From NCBI GenBank assembly GCA_016177735.1, contig JACOUS010000039.1, positions 124,001 to 188,000 on the forward strand: a stretch of DNA of 64,000 bases. Reading direction: 5' to 3'. Within the stretch, counting starts at the first letter, position 1. Every line of letters starts with the position of its first letter. Below are positions 50,761 through 60,731 of the stretch, in pieces. The translations under genes and the position numbers were made by a program. This DNA comes from Ignavibacteriales bacterium (GTDB lineage Bacteria > Bacteroidota > Ignavibacteria > Ignavibacteriales > Melioribacteraceae). The notes beneath the pieces are model-generated. The model did no database searches. It saw only the letters and a program-made list of their open reading frames with translations, and was not told the DNA's origin.

Positions 50761-50919
50761 TTATTTACAAAATAATTATTGCCCTAAGTAAAAAAATCAT
50801 TTTTGAAACGCCCCCGGCTTTTGCTTGATTTACTCCGCCGTATTAAACTGCTTCATTCACCTTGTTGAACAGCACAACAACTCAACTCTTTGCTCAGATT
50901 AACTATGAAGGAATCTTCA

Positions 50920-51288
50920 ATGCATAAAGAAAATAAATTACACGTTGTCTATTCATGTTCCGGTAGTTCAAACGTTGCACAATTAACTAATCATCTTGCG
51001 GTTAAACTCGATAGAGATGGAATTGCGGAAATGTCTTGTATTACCGGCGTTGGTGGAAATGTAAAACCGCTCGTGCATAAAGCAAAACAAGCAGAGAAAA
51101 TTATTGTAATTGACGGATGCAAATTACAATGTGCGCTTCAATGTCTGCAGAATCAAAACATTGAACCGGATATTCATTTTACGGTAACGGAAGATTTTCA
51201 GATTAAAAAAATTTTTCATGAAGATTTTTCGCCGGAAGATGCCGATAAAATTTATAATGCCGTTTCGGAAAAGATAAAAACACTATAG
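50920..51288 (+). CDS. DGC-domain putative zinc-binding protein
   Basis: 122 residues from the ATG at 50920, seven bases after AAGGA; earlier in-frame starts (TTG 50890, ATG 50905) are less well placed. Seen: VVYSCSGSSNVAQLTNHLAV near the N-terminus and IIVIDGCKLQCALQCL, the Asp-Gly-Cys motif that names the DGC family. Two more Cys follow. Members are small, often found with metal or stress genes, and their biochemical role is not settled. Possible zinc or thiolate chemistry is inferred only from the cysteines. Monocistronic in this window. Confidence 0.82.
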   Translation: MHKENKLHVVYSCSGSSNVAQLTNHLAVKLDRDGIAEMSCITGVGGNVKPLVHKAKQAEKIIVIDGCKLQCALQCLQNQNIEPDIHFTVTEDFQIKKIFHEDFSPEDADKIYNAVSEKIKTL

Positions 51289-52967: not shown

Positions 52968-52996
52968 TTGCGTCCTTTTCATAGTTGTTTCGTCTA
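52968..52996 (+). promoter_or_regulatory. Candidate ECF (SigZ) promoter of the sigma-factor operon
   Basis: TTGCGTCC (52968-52975), a 15-base spacer, CGTCTA (52991-52996). The first twelve bases (TTGCGTCCTTTT) and the CGTCTA box are repeated, with the same spacing, at 58428-58456 upstream of the second DUF5916 gene. CGTC-type -10 boxes are common for ECF sigma factors. It lies 47 bases before the first gene of the SigZ operon. The assignment to SigZ is inferred. Confidence 0.6.
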
Positions 52997-53043
52997 CTGC
53001 ATATGAAAAATATTTTTATTACTACAAAATGAAGGGACAGAAA

Positions 53044-53379
53044 ATGATTGCACGAGTCTGGAAAGGCACTACACTTGAAAAAGATACTGAAACTTACCTT
53101 CAATATTTGGAAGAGACCGGGTTAAAAGATTACAGAAAAACAGAGGGAAACCTCGGCGTTCAGTTACTCTTAAAAACAGAAGACGGCATAAGCGAATTTG
53201 TAATAATTTCTTTGTGGGATTCGTTCGATTCAATTCGTAAATTTTCCGGCAAAAATATTAACAAAGCACGCTACTATCCGAAGGATAAAAAGTATCTGCT
53301 GAAACTTGAACCGAACGTTACTCATTACACGGTTGCAAATTTTCTTGGCATCAAAACCGATAATTCAAAATGTTGTTGA
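53044..53379 (+). CDS. Small antibiotic-biosynthesis-monooxygenase-like (ABM) protein
   Basis: 111 residues from the ATG at 53044, preceded by AAGGG; the longer open frame back to 52861 runs through the promoter candidate and is not coding. The sequence (MIARVWKGTTLEKDTETYLQ, later FVIISLWDSFDSIRKFSG) has the ferredoxin-like alpha-beta pattern of ABM dimers. Such proteins include heme- or quinone-modifying monooxygenases and many of unknown role. It ends in Cys-Cys, and the sigma factor that follows 24 bases later also has a Cys-rich end; a thiol or metal link is speculation. First gene of the SigZ operon. Confidence 0.8.
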   Translation: MIARVWKGTTLEKDTETYLQYLEETGLKDYRKTEGNLGVQLLLKTEDGISEFVIISLWDSFDSIRKFSGKNINKARYYPKDKKYLLKLEPNVTHYTVANFLGIKTDNSKCC

Positions 53380-53403
53380 TAATAAAACAAGCAACGGGAA
53401 ATT

Positions 53404-53994
53404 ATGAACAAGAACGAATTAAATATGATAGTCTCTACCGAAAAAATCTGGAAAGAATTTTATGATAAGCTGAAAAGCTTCGTTCAACTACGTGTATCTG
53501 CAAAAGATGATGCCGAAGATATTGTCCAGGAAGTTTTTATCCGCATACATAATAAAATTGATACGCTCAAGGATAATCAAAAATTAGAAAGCTGGATATA
53601 CCAGATAGCGCGAAACGCAATCATAGATTACTACCGCCGCAAAAAAGAGAAGATAGAACTTCGTGATGATTTCAAGATTGATGAAGATTCCGAAAACGAT
53701 GCAATGAAAAGATTATCGCCAAGCATAATTAAAATGATAGACCATCTTCCCTATATTTACAAAGAGGCAATCTTACTAACCGAATACAAAGGTTTGAAGC
53801 AGAAAGAACTTGCTGATAGTTTAGGCATTTCATTAACCGGCGCCAAATCGCGCGTACAGCGCGGCAGAAAGCTTTTGAAAGAAATGCTGCACGATTGCTG
53901 TGCATTCGAATTTGACAGCATCGGCAAATTGACCGGCTATTGCGAAAAATCGAAATGCTGTTCCCGGTTTGTTGAGCTTCGCGGGAAGTTGTGA
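53404..53994 (+). CDS. sigZ: RNA polymerase ECF sigma factor, SigZ type
   Basis: 196 residues. Region 2 (FVQLRVSAKDDAEDIVQEVF, with IRIHNKIDTLKDNQKLESWI after it) and the DYYRRKKEK patch bind core enzyme and the -10 box. Region 4 (EAILLTEYKGLKQKELADSL, GISLTGAKSRVQRGRKLLKE) is the -35-binding helix-turn-helix. The tail LHDCCAFEFDSIGKLTGYCE plus KSKCC carries five Cys and matches the end seen in SigZ proteins; it may sense metal or redox state. No anti-sigma gene follows. Instead a DapB-like and an AraC gene do. I think it drives its own operon and the 58.5 kb gene (see findings). Confidence 0.9.
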   Translation: MNKNELNMIVSTEKIWKEFYDKLKSFVQLRVSAKDDAEDIVQEVFIRIHNKIDTLKDNQKLESWIYQIARNAIIDYYRRKKEKIELRDDFKIDEDSENDAMKRLSPSIIKMIDHLPYIYKEAILLTEYKGLKQKELADSLGISLTGAKSRVQRGRKLLKEMLHDCCAFEFDSIGKLTGYCEKSKCCSRFVELRGKL

Positions 53995-54023
53995 TTCACA
54001 AAAAAAATAATCAGAGGTAAGCA

Positions 54024-54821
54024 ATGATAAAAGTTTGTGTTGCCGGCGCAACCGGAAATGTTGGGAGTATTCTCGCAAAAGAAATCAACAACTCGCCGCT
54101 GTTTTCTTTAACGGAAGCGATATCGAAAAGTAACGCCGGTAAAAATCTTGGAGAAATTATTAACGAACCCGATATTAATTTGACACTTAAAGGTGACGTT
54201 GAAGAATTGGGAAACAAATCCGTTGATGTTCTGATTGATTACACAACTCCTTCTTCAGTAAAAAGAAATGTTGAGACTGCAATATCGAAAGGGACCAATG
54301 TTGTAATCGGAACTTCGGGATTATCGGACACGGACTATGAAGAAATAAATGAACTCGCATTGAGAAATAAAGTTGGAGCTTTTGCCGCCGGAAATTTTTC
54401 CATAACGTCTGCATTGATGCAGTACTTTGCAAAAATTGCCGCCAAACATATCGATACATGGGAAATTATTGATTACGCACCAGATACCAAAGTTGACGCA
54501 CCGAGCGGAACTACGCGCGAGCTATCGTTTGAATTATCTAAAATAAAAAAACCGTCATGGCGTGTTCCGATAGAATCTAATATCGGTTTACGGGAAAGCA
54601 GAGGCGCCGAATTGAACGGTTCTCAAATTCATTCTATCCGCGTGCCCGGATTCTATTCATCTTCCGAAATTATTTTTGGATTGGATGGCGAGAAGTTAAC
54701 ATTGCGTCACGACTCGATCAGTTACAAACCTTACGTGCAAGGAACATTACTTGCCGCAAGCAAAGTTGTAGAATTTATCGGCTTGAAAAGAGGAATCATT
54801 TCTTTGCTGGATATTTTATAA
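54024..54821 (+). CDS. DapB-like 4-hydroxy-tetrahydrodipicolinate reductase family protein (divergent)
   Basis: 265 residues, full DapB length. N-terminal dinucleotide site CVAGATGNVGSILAKE; DYTTPSS; GTSGLSD; AAGNFSITSALM; and KVDAPSGT all fall in DapB order. But the usual ExHHxxKxDAPSGT is IIDYAPDTKVDAPSGT: the lysine is kept and the catalytic His-His pair is absent. I recall other DapB-annotated proteins with an 'EIIDYA' version, so this may be a known subfamily rather than a local loss. Its place between a sigma factor and an AraC regulator suggests a job other than routine lysine synthesis. Whether the genome has a second, canonical dapB cannot be seen here. It overlaps the next gene by one base. 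Confidence 0.82.
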   Translation: MIKVCVAGATGNVGSILAKEINNSPLFSLTEAISKSNAGKNLGEIINEPDINLTLKGDVEELGNKSVDVLIDYTTPSSVKRNVETAISKGTNVVIGTSGLSDTDYEEINELALRNKVGAFAAGNFSITSALMQYFAKIAAKHIDTWEIIDYAPDTKVDAPSGTTRELSFELSKIKKPSWRVPIESNIGLRESRGAELNGSQIHSIRVPGFYSSSEIIFGLDGEKLTLRHDSISYKPYVQGTLLAASKVVEFIGLKRGIISLLDIL

Positions 54822-55714
54822 TGAGCGATAATACAAAAAATCTTTTTACTTCCGACTTGTTTCGTATTGAAGATTTTGAATGCAAAAAAAATTCTTCCAC
54901 ACATTTCGGAAACCAAATCTGCAATGAATATGAAATTAATTTTATCAGGAGCGGCTGTTTCTCGCTACAAATCAGGAAGAGACATTTTGATATCTATTCG
55001 GAGCGCATTCTGCTCGGTAACGCCGGTATTGAATACGCCATTGAACAAGCAGAGAGCACAGCCAGCCAAACAACAGTATTGAAAATTGAGAAAGAATTTT
55101 TAGACGATATTAAAAGTTATTACCGGAAGGGAACAAATTGTACGGCAGATTTATTCGGCAAAGATGAAAATGCCGTATTCCCTTTTCCAGTGATTAAAAC
55201 TTCACCGCTGCTCGCTTGCACACATCATTTAATCCTGAGTTCGTTGAATAACAAAACCCGGAAAGAATTTCGACTGCAGACTGAGGTGTTACTTTGTAAT
55301 CTAATCGAAGATATTTTCAAATCATTGTATTCAAATCTGCCGCCGGAACCCGATAAGACCGGATTAAATAAAAGACATATCGAAACTATTGAGCTGTCAA
55401 AAATATTTATAGAGAAAAACTTTAGCAGAGAAATTTCACTTTCCGAAATAGCCGCCAGTTCTTTTTTAAGCCCGTTCTATTTTAACAGAATATTTAAAAA
55501 ATATACAAACTTAAGTCCTTATTCGTATTTGATTCAGTTCAGATTGAAATATGCTTCTCTGCTGCTCAGAAATACTAATTTATCAGTTACCGAAATATGT
55601 TACCGGAGCGGTTTTAATAATTTTTCACATTTTGTTTCAACCTTCACAAAATTTTTTAATACCAGCCCCCGATTTTTCAGGAAATCACACACTCCTCTTC
55701 AAAACAAAAAATAA
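54821..55714 (+). CDS. AraC-family transcription regulator
   Basis: 297 residues. N-terminal cupin-like ligand part (YEINFIRSGCFSLQIRKRHF; GNAGIEYAIEQAE), then the AraC DNA-binding module: HTH1 ISLSEIAASSFLSPFYFNRI, FKKYTNLSPYSYLIQFRLKY, and HTH2 LSVTEICYRSGFNNFSHFVS with FTKFFNTSPRFFRK. Two intact helix-turn-helix units. The ATG overlaps the DapB-like stop (TAATG), so it is co-translated with it. It likely controls a nearby gene, e.g. the DUF5916 genes just downstream; ligand unknown. Confidence 0.9.
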   Translation: MSDNTKNLFTSDLFRIEDFECKKNSSTHFGNQICNEYEINFIRSGCFSLQIRKRHFDIYSERILLGNAGIEYAIEQAESTASQTTVLKIEKEFLDDIKSYYRKGTNCTADLFGKDENAVFPFPVIKTSPLLACTHHLILSSLNNKTRKEFRLQTEVLLCNLIEDIFKSLYSNLPPEPDKTGLNKRHIETIELSKIFIEKNFSREISLSEIAASSFLSPFYFNRIFKKYTNLSPYSYLIQFRLKYASLLLRNTNLSVTEICYRSGFNNFSHFVSTFTKFFNTSPRFFRKSHTPLQNKK

Positions 55715-55830
55715 TTTGAGAAAGAGTAATCATTTCCCGCAAACCATCATAAGAAAAAAATAAAAAGCAATATCCCGAAAGTTTTCTTTATCACTTCCCT
55801 CTATCATTGTGCATCAAAGGGGGAAGTTTT

Positions 55831-57993
55831 ATGCGAACAAAGTTATACATCTTCATCGCACTTTTTTTATTCACAGCATCAATCATTTTCTGCACCGGAA
55901 ATAAATTGAGTAGAACTGCCCCCAAACATGACGGCGCTCCAAAGATTGACGGAATTTTAGACGAAGATATTTGGAAACAAAGTCTTGTAATTGACAATTT
56001 CACACAGCGGTTTCCGAAAGAAGGCAACTCACCAACCGAAAAAACTGTTGTTCATATTTTTTACACACCCACTTCTCTTTATATCGGAGTTCAAGCGTTC
56101 GATTCGCAGCCGGATAAAATTTTCGCAAGTGCAATGAGACGGGACGATTTCAGCATAACCGAAAACGATCAATTCGTTATTGCAATCGATTCATACAACG
56201 ACGGACGAAACGGTTACTGGTTTTCTACAAATCCACTCGGGGTAAAAGTAGATGCTCAATTTTTTGACGAAGGCGAAATTTGGGAATCGAACTGGGACGG
56301 CATCTGGAATTGTGAAGCCGTAATTCACGAATCCGGCTGGAGCGCCGAACTCGAAATACCGTTTTCAACTTTGCGATTCAACAACGGTGATGATGTAACA
56401 ATGGGCATCAATTTGTTCCGCAGAATTATTAGAACAAACGAACAAATTTTTTCTCCGCTCATTCCACTTTCGGTTCCGTACGGTACGCCGCGAGTTTCGT
56501 TTGCGAACAAATTTGTTTTCAGCGGCATCGATAAAAGCAGAAGTTTGAAATTTGAGCCTTATGTTCTCGGCAAATATGTTTCTGAAAAAAATTCAGAGAC
56601 AGATAAAGACGGAGACGTTGGCTTCGATCTTCGTTATAACATTACGGATAATTTTGTAACCAACTTTTCATACAACATCGATTTCGCCCAAGCAGAAGTT
56701 GACGATCAGCAGATTAACTTAACGCGCTTCAATTTGTTCTATCCTGAAAAGAGGGATTTTTTTTTGGAGAACAGCGGAATCTTTTCTGTAGGTATGCCGC
56801 AAGAAAATGAAATTTTCTTCAGCAGAAAAATCGGTTTGAAAGAAACGTCGCCGAATAATTTCGAGCCGATACCGATTCAACTCGGGTTGAAGGCAACCGG
56901 AAAAGTGAGCGACTTAAATATTGGAGTGATGAATTTACAAACGAGATCAGCCGGAGAAATCCCGTCACAAAATTTTTCAGTTGCGCGAATCAAGTACGAA
57001 TTGCAAAACTCATATTTAAGCGCAATAACAACCAACGTTGTTGACAAAAATAATTTTGCGAACACAAGTGCAGTAGATTTTTCAGCAAATGTTTTCGGCG
57101 ATGCAAAATTTTATGGGTTTGCCGCACTGACTTCCTCAAGAAATAACAAAACAAATATCGGGAACGGTTCATCTGTATTTCTGGATTTATATCAACTCGG
57201 CGAGCGGACTTCATTTGCACTCAATTACATGTACATCGGAAAAAATTATAAACCGGAACTTGGTTTTGTTAATTGGCAAGGCGTTAATCGTTATAATGCA
57301 ACTCTTACAGTGCCGTTTTATATCGAAACAGAAACACTTCGAAGAATTATTCCACGTTTCTATTCTCTAAATATTTTTAATCTCGACGGCAAACGTGAAT
57401 ATCTCGAACAAACATTCGAATTCGGTTTTGAATTTCAATCCGAAGACGTAATCAAATTTTGGGCGGCGCAATATTTTGAACATGTTCCTTTCGATTACAG
57501 CATTTTCAAATCACACTTACTTCACAAAGGTGAATACAATCATTTCAGGTACGGTTTGTCGATCGATTCCAAACCCGGCAGAATTTTTTCCGGCGGTCTA
57601 TCTCTTTCTCTTGGAGAACTATACGGCGGAAGCATGTACAAAATAAATCCTTCCATCAATTGGAAGATCAATAAAAATCTTACTGTCACTCAGTTTTACA
57701 GTGCCAATTTTGTCGAATTGCAAAACGAAAAATTCACCACACAACTTTTCAGAACGGTTTTTAATTACTCGTTCAATACACATCTGAGTCTCAGCGGTTC
57801 GGTTCAATACAACAACAGCAATGAATCAATTTTATTGAATCTGCGCACGTCATACATTCCATCCGATGGCATCGCACTTTATCTTATCATTAACAGCACT
57901 ACTGAAAACTCAGATATCTTCAGAAAAAGTAACTTAACAGAAGAGACGACAAAAATGGTTCTGCTGAAATTCAATTACCTTTTTAAAATATAA
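55831..57993 (+). CDS. Outer-membrane protein, CBM9-like domain + DUF5916 barrel (copy 1)
   Basis: 720 residues from the ATG at 55831, with GGGGGA upstream; a TTG at 55807 is less likely. A signal or lipoprotein-like leader precedes the CBM9-like N-terminal domain (KIDGILDEDIWKQSLVIDNF; FYTPTSLYIGVQAFD; DQFVIAIDSYNDGRNGYWF). A conserved NYNIDFAQAEVDDQQINLTR-type segment and YPEKRDFFLENSGIF open the barrel, which then runs to the C-terminus. This family is common in Bacteroidota; several members are tied to uptake or surface-exposed modification of polymers, but function is open. Paralogue of the gene at 58493. Confidence 0.88.
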   Translation: MRTKLYIFIALFLFTASIIFCTGNKLSRTAPKHDGAPKIDGILDEDIWKQSLVIDNFTQRFPKEGNSPTEKTVVHIFYTPTSLYIGVQAFDSQPDKIFASAMRRDDFSITENDQFVIAIDSYNDGRNGYWFSTNPLGVKVDAQFFDEGEIWESNWDGIWNCEAVIHESGWSAELEIPFSTLRFNNGDDVTMGINLFRRIIRTNEQIFSPLIPLSVPYGTPRVSFANKFVFSGIDKSRSLKFEPYVLGKYVSEKNSETDKDGDVGFDLRYNITDNFVTNFSYNIDFAQAEVDDQQINLTRFNLFYPEKRDFFLENSGIFSVGMPQENEIFFSRKIGLKETSPNNFEPIPIQLGLKATGKVSDLNIGVMNLQTRSAGEIPSQNFSVARIKYELQNSYLSAITTNVVDKNNFANTSAVDFSANVFGDAKFYGFAALTSSRNNKTNIGNGSSVFLDLYQLGERTSFALNYMYIGKNYKPELGFVNWQGVNRYNATLTVPFYIETETLRRIIPRFYSLNIFNLDGKREYLEQTFEFGFEFQSEDVIKFWAAQYFEHVPFDYSIFKSHLLHKGEYNHFRYGLSIDSKPGRIFSGGLSLSLGELYGGSMYKINPSINWKINKNLTVTQFYSANFVELQNEKFTTQLFRTVFNYSFNTHLSLSGSVQYNNSNESILLNLRTSYIPSDGIALYLIINSTTENSDIFRKSNLTEETTKMVLLKFNYLFKI

Positions 57994-58007
57994 CGGGGGA
58001 AAAATTT

Positions 58008-58418
58008 ATGGACGAGAAAATAGTTCTTTCAAAATTTAGTGAAGAAGAAAAAACAACACTCAAGACAATTGACGAGTTTAACAAAGCTCTTGTAGAAAAC
58101 GATCTCAAAAAATATTTCTCTTTTATCGATGAAGATTTCACAACTTTTCTCTCAAACTCTCCTTACCGGATTGACGGCGTGTACGACGACGAAGAAGAAC
58201 TACAAAACATGTACAGGACAAAACAATTTACTCTGTTTGAAGAGATGCAGCCAGCAGTGCAGTTATTCGGGGACTGCGCAGTTGTAACTTATCATGTCCG
58301 TGCAATTGTAGAATCAAAAGAAGGCGGCACAACTTTGTACATGAAAGAAACCGATGTGCTTGTTAAAAAATCCGGCACTTGGAAAGTTGTGCACGTACAT
58401 ATTTCCGGCACAAAATGA
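58008..58418 (+). CDS. NTF2-like / SnoaL-like domain protein
   Basis: 136 residues. The pattern KTIDEFNKALVENDLKKYFS, DEDFTTFLSNSPYRIDG, FGDCAVVTYHVRAIVES and a C-terminal TWKVVHVHIS strand fits the SnoaL/NTF2 cone fold (DUF4440-type). Such small dimers bind hydrophobic ligands or act as ketosteroid-isomerase-like enzymes. No signal peptide, so cytoplasmic. It is 14 bases after the first DUF5916 gene and is probably co-transcribed. The SigZ-type promoter for the next gene begins only 9 bases after its stop. Confidence 0.8.
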   Translation: MDEKIVLSKFSEEEKTTLKTIDEFNKALVENDLKKYFSFIDEDFTTFLSNSPYRIDGVYDDEEELQNMYRTKQFTLFEEMQPAVQLFGDCAVVTYHVRAIVESKEGGTTLYMKETDVLVKKSGTWKVVHVHISGTK

Positions 58419-58427
58419 TGGAACAGC

Positions 58428-58456
58428 TTGCGTCCTTTTGAGCATCCTTCCGTCTA
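58428..58456 (+). promoter_or_regulatory. Candidate ECF (SigZ) promoter upstream of second DUF5916 gene
   Basis: TTGCGTCC (58428-58435), 15-base spacer, CGTCTA (58451-58456), identical in both boxes and in spacing to the one at 52968-52996. It lies 36 bases before the ATG of the outer-membrane protein gene. These two are the only copies I could find by eye. Confidence 0.6.
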
Positions 58457-58492: not shown

Positions 58493-60643
58493 ATGAAACC
58501 AAATAAATATTTCTTTCTAATTCTTTTTCTTTTGTCCGGCAAAATATTTGCCGGAAATAATTTATCCGTTGAGCCGGTAAAATCGGCACCGGTTTTTGAC
58601 GGCAAAGTTGATGAGCTTTATAAATCCGGTATTCTTTTCAATTCATTCAAACAGCTTGAGCCGGATATTTTTGCAGAGCCGTCCGTAAAAACAGAAATCT
58701 ATTTTTTGTACGATCAGCAAAACATTTACATTGCCGGAAATTTATATCAACCGAAAAACGGAATTAAATCGAGCAACGGCAGAAAAGATTCACCGATAAT
58801 CCTTGACGGCGACGCAATTGGAATCGTGATCGATCCGCTCAACAACGGCAACTCTGCATATTTCTTTTCGATTAACCCATCGAATGCAATTGTTGATGGA
58901 ACGCTTGATGCTTACGGTATATGGGATTTCAAATGGGATGCAATATTTAATTCTGCCACTTCAATTGAAGATGATCACTGGAGTTTTGAATTTCAGCTCC
59001 CCCTTTCATCAATCAGCTTTCAGGATAAAGATGAACAGGATTGGGGCTTAATGTTCAGACGCGAATATGCAGCGACAAAAGAAATTATTTTAAGTCAGAT
59101 TGTTGATAAGAATCAGCCGTTCAGAATAAGCGACTTTCATAAAATCAAAGGTCTCGCCGGATTGAAGAAAGAAACAAATTTATTCTTCACGCCATATTCA
59201 TTTTATTCATTTAGAAATAACATCAACACAAAACAGAATGAAAGTAAAACAAAATTCGGCGGCGAAGTGAAATATAATCCGCTATCATCGATGACGATAC
59301 TTGCAACAGTGAACCCTGATTTTGCGCAGATTGAAACAGATAAATTAATTATCAACGTTGATGATGTACCGACTTCGTACCCAGAGAAAAGACCTTTCTT
59401 CACCGAGTCGAGTGATTTGTATCCGGGACTTGCGGTAAATACACGAAACATTGAAGATATTGATGTTGGAATCAAACTGAGAGATGTGCGCGATAATATT
59501 AAGTACGACCTCACATGGGTTTTGGACAGCAAACAAAATAAATGGTACACCGGTGATTTCAGATGGACGGACAACCAAACTTTTTATGTTGATTTGATCG
59601 GGGGGATCAAACAACAGAAAGAAAGAACTGATTACAACTTCACAACAAATTTAAGAACGTGGTTTTTCGATAAAAGATTAACCGCTTATACATGGTTCGG
59701 AACAATAAATAAACAGAACGCAAAAAATGAATTTGAGTCGGTCAATTCCGTCCGCTGGGTAACACGCGAGCTTACAATTGCGGTTTGGAATCACTTTAAA
59801 ACAAAATACTACAACCCGAACATTACCGGTCACAACACTCTATCGAACGAAATACTTTTTGATGCGTGGATTTCATATTCGTCAATTAACGAAAGCGGAT
59901 TTTTTAGAGTAATTACGCCGCAGATTAAAAATCAATATGTGTCGTTCTATACAAATCCGGAACTTTCATACGACTATTTAACACTTTCATTAAACACTAC
60001 TCTGAATTTGGGAAATGCGCTTGGTAACTGGAATTTTGATATAAGCTACTTCCCCTCTGCAAAAAAATATTTCCGCTATAGAAATGTTGACGGATTTTCC
60101 GAAGATAAAATATTTCAAGATGCGTTCAGTGATTTTGTACTTGTTGAGCAGAATAAGGACGGCTGGCAGTTAGATTTTAATTCGGATTACTCAAAAATAT
60201 TCGGCACAAAATTTTCATACGATAATCGTCAAGTCAGAAAATCTTCCACCGATAATTTTTCAGGCGAGCTTTATTGGAAGATTGCACCAACTTCAGTAAT
60301 AACATACTCGTTGGAATATGTTAATCTCAGCGGTTCGGAATATCAGAACAAGTACAATCAGGTTATTCACAGAGTAAAAGCAGAGTATAACATCACAGAT
60401 AAAATTAATCTGCGCGGAATTGTGCAATTGAATGATGCAGCGATGACATCTCTTGATAATTATGAAAGCAGTAATCCGGTAATTAATTTCACACTCTCGT
60501 GGCAGTACATGAGCGGAAGTTACATTTATCTTGTTTACAACAAACAAGAATTAAATTGGAGCGACCGGGTAAATTCTTCTGCGACAAAATTTAACGATCA
60601 ATCTATCACACTGAAAATCAATAATGTATTCAATATTTATTAA
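58493..60643 (+). CDS. Outer-membrane protein, CBM9-like domain + DUF5916 barrel (copy 2)
   Basis: 716 residues. Signal peptide (YFFLILFLLSGKIFAG). N-terminal CBM9-like region (PVFDGKVDELYKSGILFNSF; YDQQNIYIAGNLYQP; DAIGIVIDPLNNGNSAYFFS). The barrel marker ATVNPDFAQIETDKLIINVD and YPEKRPFFTESSDL follow, then strand-rich sequence to the end. It shares domain order and the NxDFAQ and YPEKR(P/D)FF motifs with the protein at 55831, but is clearly diverged. GGAGG-like GGAAGGAG precedes the ATG. It has its own SigZ-type promoter candidate and a hairpin terminator after it. Confidence 0.88.
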   Translation: MKPNKYFFLILFLLSGKIFAGNNLSVEPVKSAPVFDGKVDELYKSGILFNSFKQLEPDIFAEPSVKTEIYFLYDQQNIYIAGNLYQPKNGIKSSNGRKDSPIILDGDAIGIVIDPLNNGNSAYFFSINPSNAIVDGTLDAYGIWDFKWDAIFNSATSIEDDHWSFEFQLPLSSISFQDKDEQDWGLMFRREYAATKEIILSQIVDKNQPFRISDFHKIKGLAGLKKETNLFFTPYSFYSFRNNINTKQNESKTKFGGEVKYNPLSSMTILATVNPDFAQIETDKLIINVDDVPTSYPEKRPFFTESSDLYPGLAVNTRNIEDIDVGIKLRDVRDNIKYDLTWVLDSKQNKWYTGDFRWTDNQTFYVDLIGGIKQQKERTDYNFTTNLRTWFFDKRLTAYTWFGTINKQNAKNEFESVNSVRWVTRELTIAVWNHFKTKYYNPNITGHNTLSNEILFDAWISYSSINESGFFRVITPQIKNQYVSFYTNPELSYDYLTLSLNTTLNLGNALGNWNFDISYFPSAKKYFRYRNVDGFSEDKIFQDAFSDFVLVEQNKDGWQLDFNSDYSKIFGTKFSYDNRQVRKSSTDNFSGELYWKIAPTSVITYSLEYVNLSGSEYQNKYNQVIHRVKAEYNITDKINLRGIVQLNDAAMTSLDNYESSNPVINFTLSWQYMSGSYIYLVYNKQELNWSDRVNSSATKFNDQSITLKINNVFNIY

Positions 60644-60700: not shown

Positions 60701-60731
60701 GCCGCGACTTTTGGAGGTCGTGGCTATTTTT
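60701..60731 (+). terminator. Hairpin terminator after the second DUF5916 gene
   Basis: GCCGCGAC (60701-60708) and GTCGTGGC (60717-60724) form a stem with one G-U pair, followed by TATTTTT. Text of this type ('cgacttttggaggtcgtggc') also recalls dispersed intergenic hairpins of Bacteroidota, so it may be repeat-derived. Confidence 0.65.

Follow-up and report, generated by a model that had tools for sequence, protein, structure and literature searches.

SigZ, an ECF sigma factor with a conserved promoter and a cysteine-rich tail, is a likely metalloid-responsive regulator

A stretch of 64,000 nucleotides from an Ignavibacteriales bacterium (contig JACOUS010000039.1, positions 124,001 to 188,000; hereafter the window) carries the same two-box element twice, once before an operon containing an ECF sigma factor gene and once before a gene for a DUF5916 protein. 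Which polymerase reads these elements, and to what signal does the system respond? We consider it likely that this sigma factor, SigZ, responds to metalloids, most probably arsenic, by means of an on-board cysteine sensor working in a CorE-like manner, and that the two elements, P1 and P2, are its promoters.

Two copies of one element in the window genome

The window holds exactly two matches to TTGCGTCC-N15-CGTCTA, both on the + strand (Table 1), where 0 are expected by chance (100 shuffles). P1 reads TTGCGTCCTTTTCATAGTTGTTTCGTCTA and P2 reads TTGCGTCCTTTTGAGCATCCTTCCGTCTA; they are identical in 18 bases, TTGCGTCCTTTT plus CGTCTA, and differ in the intervening 11-base spacer. The -10 box is separated from the start codon by 47 bases at P1 (ABM ATG at 53044; a second in-frame ATG at 53029 lies 32 bases away) and by 36 bases at P2 (DUF5916 ATG at 58493, preceded by a good ribosome site). 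An earlier note on this DNA had described the identical copies, their 18 fixed bases and both distances correctly, and scanning the whole genome (3,866,697 bp) for scattered copies returned only these two exact matches, each just upstream of a gene.

With up to three mismatches allowed, the genome contains 101 matches versus 238 for a reversed control pattern. Loose matches are therefore uninformative and give no grounds for naming further targets in this genome. Two one-mismatch sites, on contigs C1 and C7, were also rejected as promoters, one lying antisense within a gene and the other in a CTTTGCG-type repeat before panB. Such CTTTGCG/TTGCGT-rich sequence recurs among the loose matches (G000:C7:34178, C18:17998, C13:104888, C16:87004), is intergenic at least once, and resembles a dispersed repeat more than a set of promoters.

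The sigma factor gene had been named SigZ in the earlier note, and it is a true member of that family. Its product scores 215.3 bits against TIGR02959 (curated equivalog cut-off 168.65) and 222 bits against NF007215 (cut-off 212). It consists of sigma2 and sigma4 only (PF04542, PF08281), which is the ECF type; its best solved-structure matches are ECF structures, and most hits of a fold search were ECF or other sigma factors. Of the proposed operon ABM-SigZ-DapB-AraC, DapB and AraC are the less certain members: the genome has only this dapB, and dapB does not adjoin SigZ at the other loci examined. Our scan found no + strand terminator between sigZ and araC (terminator scans alone are weak evidence), and dapB is probably transcribed by read-through from P1. 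This gene, required for lysine and cell-wall precursor synthesis, begins 29 bases past sigZ. Since it is the sole dapB of the genome and no terminator was found in between, a stress sigma factor may partly control an essential gene.

A Pfam search with the ABM copy of the window alone gave no match; its Stygiobacter counterpart, which adjoins sigZ, passes PF03992. An ABM gene also adjoins SigZ in a Chloroflexota locus (L117). ABM was rejected as a general neighbour of ars genes, as ABM relatives without SigZ do not adjoin them. Directly upstream of the first DUF5916 gene no SigZ motif was found in the window search, and its place in the regulon is uncertain. A DGC-domain, putative zinc-binding protein (PF08859) is encoded at 50905-51288 of the window, two genes ahead of the SigZ operon and before gltX.

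Table 1. Elements and genes of the SigZ locus (window coordinates)
Feature	Position	Strand	Remarks
Predicted SigZ promoter P1	52968..52996	+	-35 TTGCGTCCTTTT 52968-52979, -10 CGTCTA 52991-52996; exact match
ABM-fold small protein	53044..53379 (alternative start 53029)	+	C-terminus ...NSKCC; 60% identity to Stygiobacter ABM
sigZ, ECF sigma factor	53404..53994	+	196 aa; TIGR02959 and NF007215
Cys-rich C-terminal tail of SigZ, proposed metalloid sensor	53896..53961	+	C165 C166 ... C185 C186, also C181
dapB, 4-hydroxy-tetrahydrodipicolinate reductase	54024..54821	+	sole dapB in genome
AraC-family regulator	54821..55714	+	PF12833; overlaps dapB stop
First DUF5916 outer-membrane-type protein	55831..57993	+	PF19313
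SnoaL-like/DUF4440 protein	58008..58418	+	PF14534, PF08332; stops 9 bases before P2
Predicted SigZ promoter P2	58428..58456	+	-35 58428-58439, -10 58451-58456; exact match and alignment
Second DUF5916 protein, predicted SigZ target	58493..60643	+	PF19313, PF06452; signal peptide, CBM9-like N-terminus
Probable intrinsic terminator at the end of the P2 unit	60701..60724	+	10-pair stem, then T-rich tract

Co-occurrence of the element with sigZ

Next, we examined whether the element accompanies sigZ in other genomes. Among the 164 genomes of the order, SigZ above cut-off is present in seven and TTGCRTCC-N15-CGTCTA likewise in seven, in five of them at the sigZ locus (Fisher p = 4.6e-7 for co-occurrence). 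The remaining two SigZ genomes carry a weakened motif (one and three mismatches) in the same place, between sigZ and an ArsP gene; in G053 and G069, which have no SigZ above cut-off, the motif sites are one identical common sequence. At the level of the phylum (395 genomes), TTGCGTCYTTTT-N11-CGTCTA was found in seven genomes and SigZ (E<=1e-45) in 22. Six of the seven motif-bearing genomes possess SigZ, with the nearest motif at most 0.75 kb from sigZ (p = 9.9e-8).

The same holds across many phyla. We drew 80 SigZ loci from 84,980 species genomes, spanning Chloroflexota, Bacteroidota, Bacillota, Ignavibacteriota, Pseudomonadota and others; at 62 of these 80, which are non-independent samples including a few duplicates or near relatives, the motif (at most two mismatches) lies within 3 kb. 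The spacing is most often 15 bases, with few sites at 16 and 14. Counting sites no more than 1.5 kb from sigZ gives 20 exact ones and 69 with up to two mismatches, versus 0 and 6, respectively, in 658 kb of control sequence further from sigZ, and no motif site occurs in 79 kb around 23 other ECF genes. In the aligned sites, positions 9-12, which lie outside the search pattern, are T in 82, 100, 94 and 86%, and the median distance from motif to start codon is 37 bases.

The element has the make-up of an ECF target promoter: a -35 box and a CGTC-type -10 box at a constant distance from each other, placed before the sigma gene as well as before its targets. TTGCGTCCTTTT is in register with the SigW -35 element TTGAAACCTTT. 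According to the SigW structure paper, the -35 of the B. subtilis SigZ promoter has C at -34 (PMC6713349), and this C matches the TTGC of the present motif. B. subtilis SigZ belongs to the same curated family (TIGR02959 / PRK09637) and is listed as an ECF factor without function (PMC10141391). In one Bacteroidota family (L196-L199, L202, L208) the -10 box, found ahead of ArsI/CadI-type genes, is CGACTA instead of CGTCTA and is a natural promoter-specificity variant of SigZ. The earlier note had read the element as an ECF promoter lying shortly before genes and had expected it to track with sigZ in relatives. The order and phylum counts and the distance to start codons agree with it. With the spacing and the retained run of T added, the promoter reading is strongly supported by sequence comparison.

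Genes beneath the promoter

Window SigZ is sister to SigZ of Stygiobacter electus (99 SH-aLRT; 66% identity). In that genome (G152) two divergent SigZ promoters face methyltransferase-ABM-sigZ in one direction and arsM-DUF5916 in the other. P1 and P2 align with these Stygiobacter promoters and with three ArsP promoters. The sole close relative (E<1e-60) of the second DUF5916 protein in the 164 genomes of the order is encoded by gene 2 of the Stygiobacter arsM operon (48% identity over 682 aa). Together with the ABM homology, this indicates that the pairing of SigZ promoter and DUF5916 is conserved; judged from these sequences, the second DUF5916 gene is a member of the SigZ regulon. Of the SigZ-controlled surface-protein system that the earlier note predicted, the DUF5916 link is supported, while the wider regulon of arsenic and metal-binding genes had been missed. 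This probable function of the regulon, suggested by the genes under the promoter elsewhere, is an addition beyond that note.

The SigZ unit of the window is itself without a classical ars gene. In relatives the SigZ motif does stand immediately before ars genes, and only by analogy with Stygiobacter may the window locus be assigned to an arsenic regulon. The genome also holds, on a different contig, an ArsR-controlled operon, ArsR-ArsM-ArsC-ArsP-thioredoxin-CcdA-Acr3 (G000:C23:7759-12717, L166). Control of this operon by SigZ was rejected: it has its own ArsR and lacks the motif at up to three mismatches and spacings of 14-17. In this genome, SigZ would govern only an accessory part of the response.

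Elsewhere, arsenic genes prevail. Among 63 genes directly under the motif, 22 encode the arsenite methyltransferase NF008823, the commonest single target, followed by ArsP and ArsI/CadI; the ArsP_1 permease family accounts for 14 and DUF2703 for 5, and one gene that was tested singly scored above cut-off as ArsI/CadI. In a wider set of 103 SigZ loci, counts from which are not independent, a few of the loci being duplicated or closely related, the motif is present at 89, and at 70 an ArsM, ArsP, ArsI, DUF2703, ArsO-like or small Cys-rich gene lies directly under it. Of 86 SigZ genes, 48 have ArsM, ArsP, Acr3 or ArsI at a distance of at most 1.5 kb, whereas none of the 23 other ECF genes does (p = 1.7e-7). 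MATE pumps and oxidoreductases are also found under the motif. Some of the ArsP_1 permeases also score with models of Cu/Zn exporters, below cut-off in the cases checked, which leaves room for another metal.

About one third of SigZ loci have no ars marker within 10 kb, and in many of these the motif precedes a gene for a small Cys-rich protein. Upon inspection, sites that first seemed to lack a gene proved to lie before short reading frames (39-66 codons, 7-14 cysteines) that are conserved among relatives; one example is MENQNQSCSCNTNNGQTSNQSTNSCSCSNSCSCNCSCNCTCNCNSNKCC. In all, the small proteins encoded directly under SigZ promoters are 39-84 aa long with 7-14 Cys and unannotated. We count 19 such targets, L095 being left out as a wrong-frame artefact; proteins of this kind occur at L131, L136, L141, L145, L081, L086, L088, L142, L140, L206 (just after or beside sigZ), L109, L111, L112, L121, L122, L130 and L133. 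Random positions give a small Cys-rich call in about 2%. The Paenibacillus proteins resemble the Cys-rich N-terminus of ArsM (L084). Possibly, these small proteins constitute new metallothionein-like families.

The cysteine tail and the proposed signal

All 75 aligned SigZ proteins end in a tail containing CC and at least two further cysteines. C165 is invariant, conservation is at least 90% at C166 and C186, and the tail cysteines are as conserved as the DNA-binding residues. Beside sigZ in the window no anti-sigma gene was seen. In the AlphaFold model the two Cys pairs flank a beta-hairpin that follows sigma4, confidence being low at the tail end; our structure search returned no solved structure covering the tail. 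The Bacillus-type SigZ copies examined on Priestia plasmids have CC only and are without the distal cysteines, the motif and ars genes, so our claim is limited to the Cys-tailed group and does not extend to every SigZ.

Known sigma factors offer a model for such a tail. CorE (copper) and CorE2 (cadmium and zinc) of Myxococcus xanthus, from the group formerly called ECF44 and now ECF238, have a metal-binding Cys-rich C-terminus and activate resistance genes without an anti-sigma factor (PMC9023288, PMC8999054). A Cys-rich C-terminal domain is common to them and all 75 SigZ proteins, but the spacing differs: CC-X3-C-X2-C-X1-C in CorE2 versus CC-about 18-C-X(0-2)-C in SigZ, with the predicted hairpin in between. 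Nor does window SigZ have any Cys in residues 80-110, where the CXC of the CorE-type linker was sought (motif as described in PMC8999054, PMC9023288). For these two reasons we propose that SigZ works like CorE and do not file it as a CorE member; the likeness meant is one of features, and SigZ targets, unlike those of CorE and CorE2, are mainly arsenic genes. OrbS of Burkholderia cenocepacia, again an ECF factor that has no anti-sigma partner, also has an on-board Cys sensor at the sigma C-terminus, as proposed for SigZ (PMC9023288); unlike SigZ, it is inhibited by Fe(II) and controls siderophore genes.

Starting from what was computed (the motif and its consensus, its link to SigZ, the genes beneath it and the cysteine tail), we infer that RNA polymerase bearing SigZ would initiate at P1 and P2. 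From P1, SigZ would direct transcription of the operon that encodes it, comprising ABM-sigZ and probably dapB-araC; from P2, the cell-surface DUF5916 protein would join the same response. Arsenic in its trivalent form, or another soft metal(loid) like it, the presumed ligand being As(III) or a methylarsenical, would bind the tail thiols and switch SigZ on, as copper does for CorE. Active SigZ would then turn on detoxification genes, in other lineages ArsM, an ArsP-type exporter, ArsI/CadI or metallothionein-like small proteins, and in the window genome ABM and DUF5916.

The presence of araC within the SigZ operon raises the question of whether the 29-base element is an operator for AraC or another DNA-binding regulator instead of a sigma-factor promoter. 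We regard this as exceedingly improbable, since an AraC relative is found at only two of 86 SigZ loci, the two boxes with their fixed 15-base spacing face a start codon at a median of 37 bases, and the element fits the SigW -35 register (PMC6713349) and co-occurs with sigZ genome by genome. Hardly more credible is the view that only P1 is a real promoter and P2 a chance or copied functionless sequence. The first DUF5916 gene does without a motif, but P2 shares 18 identical bases that are unique in the genome, is followed 36 bases on by an ATG that a good ribosome site precedes, and stands before a gene whose close relative lies under a SigZ-type promoter in Stygiobacter, with no second close relative in 164 genomes.

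Alternatives that accept the promoters and dispute the signal deserve more weight. SigZ might be controlled through its synthesis (ArsR and read-through are examples) or through an anti-sigma factor encoded far away, the Cys tail being only structural and holding zinc. Many ECF factors have anti-sigma partners, L063 has an ArsR gene close to SigZ, and AlphaFold confidence is low at the tail end; against this, an unsystematic inspection of SigZ loci showed no conserved membrane or zinc anti-sigma gene next to SigZ, the SigZ promoter drives sigZ itself at 15 loci, and the tail cysteines match the DNA-binding residues in conservation. We judge this explanation rather unlikely. Somewhat less doubtful, though still the weaker reading, is that the same promoter and regulon serve a broader response to soft metals or thiol-reactive agents (Cd, Zn, Cu, Hg, electrophiles), arsenic being one inducer among several or used in some clades only. 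The metallothionein-like genes under the motif, the partly Cu/Zn-exporter-like ArsP_1 permeases, and the MATE pumps and oxidoreductases among the targets speak for it, as does CorE2, which senses Cd/Zn with a CC...C..C tail (PMC9023288). On the other hand, arsenite methyltransferase is the commonest target, with ArsP and ArsI/CadI next. We know of no role of ArsM with divalent metals.

Arsenic resistance is normally described as controlled by the ArsR repressor. ArsR-controlled operons have target genes in common with SigZ (arsM, arsP, acr3, arsC, arsI), whereas for SigZ we propose activation by a sigma factor. If arsenic-responsive SigZ is the correct reading, this would be a second, unrelated control of arsenic resistance across several phyla. 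The SigZ family gains a promoter consensus, TTGCGTCYTTTT-N11-CGTCTA, together with a proposed signal, sensor and target list. For DUF5916 outer-membrane proteins, DUF2703 and the unannotated small Cys-rich proteins, the data provide an initial hint at function. No paper linking SigZ to arsenic was found in the literature searched; the motif or its context may already be noted in the main ECF reclassification. We give about even chances to a broader proposal, that SigZ represents a widespread class of one-protein arsenic switches, in which the Cys tail would bind As(III) or methylarsenicals and recruit RNA polymerase to the conserved promoter of a regulon including metallothionein-like small proteins, a second methyltransferase, ABM and a dedicated outer-membrane DUF5916 protein.

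As to the second methyltransferase, ArsM is fused to such a domain at three loci (L097:3227-4645, L101:10658-12073, L108:705-2123), and in Stygiobacter it is a separate gene (L062:10302-10928) heading the sigZ operon. A two-enzyme arsenic methylation is possible.
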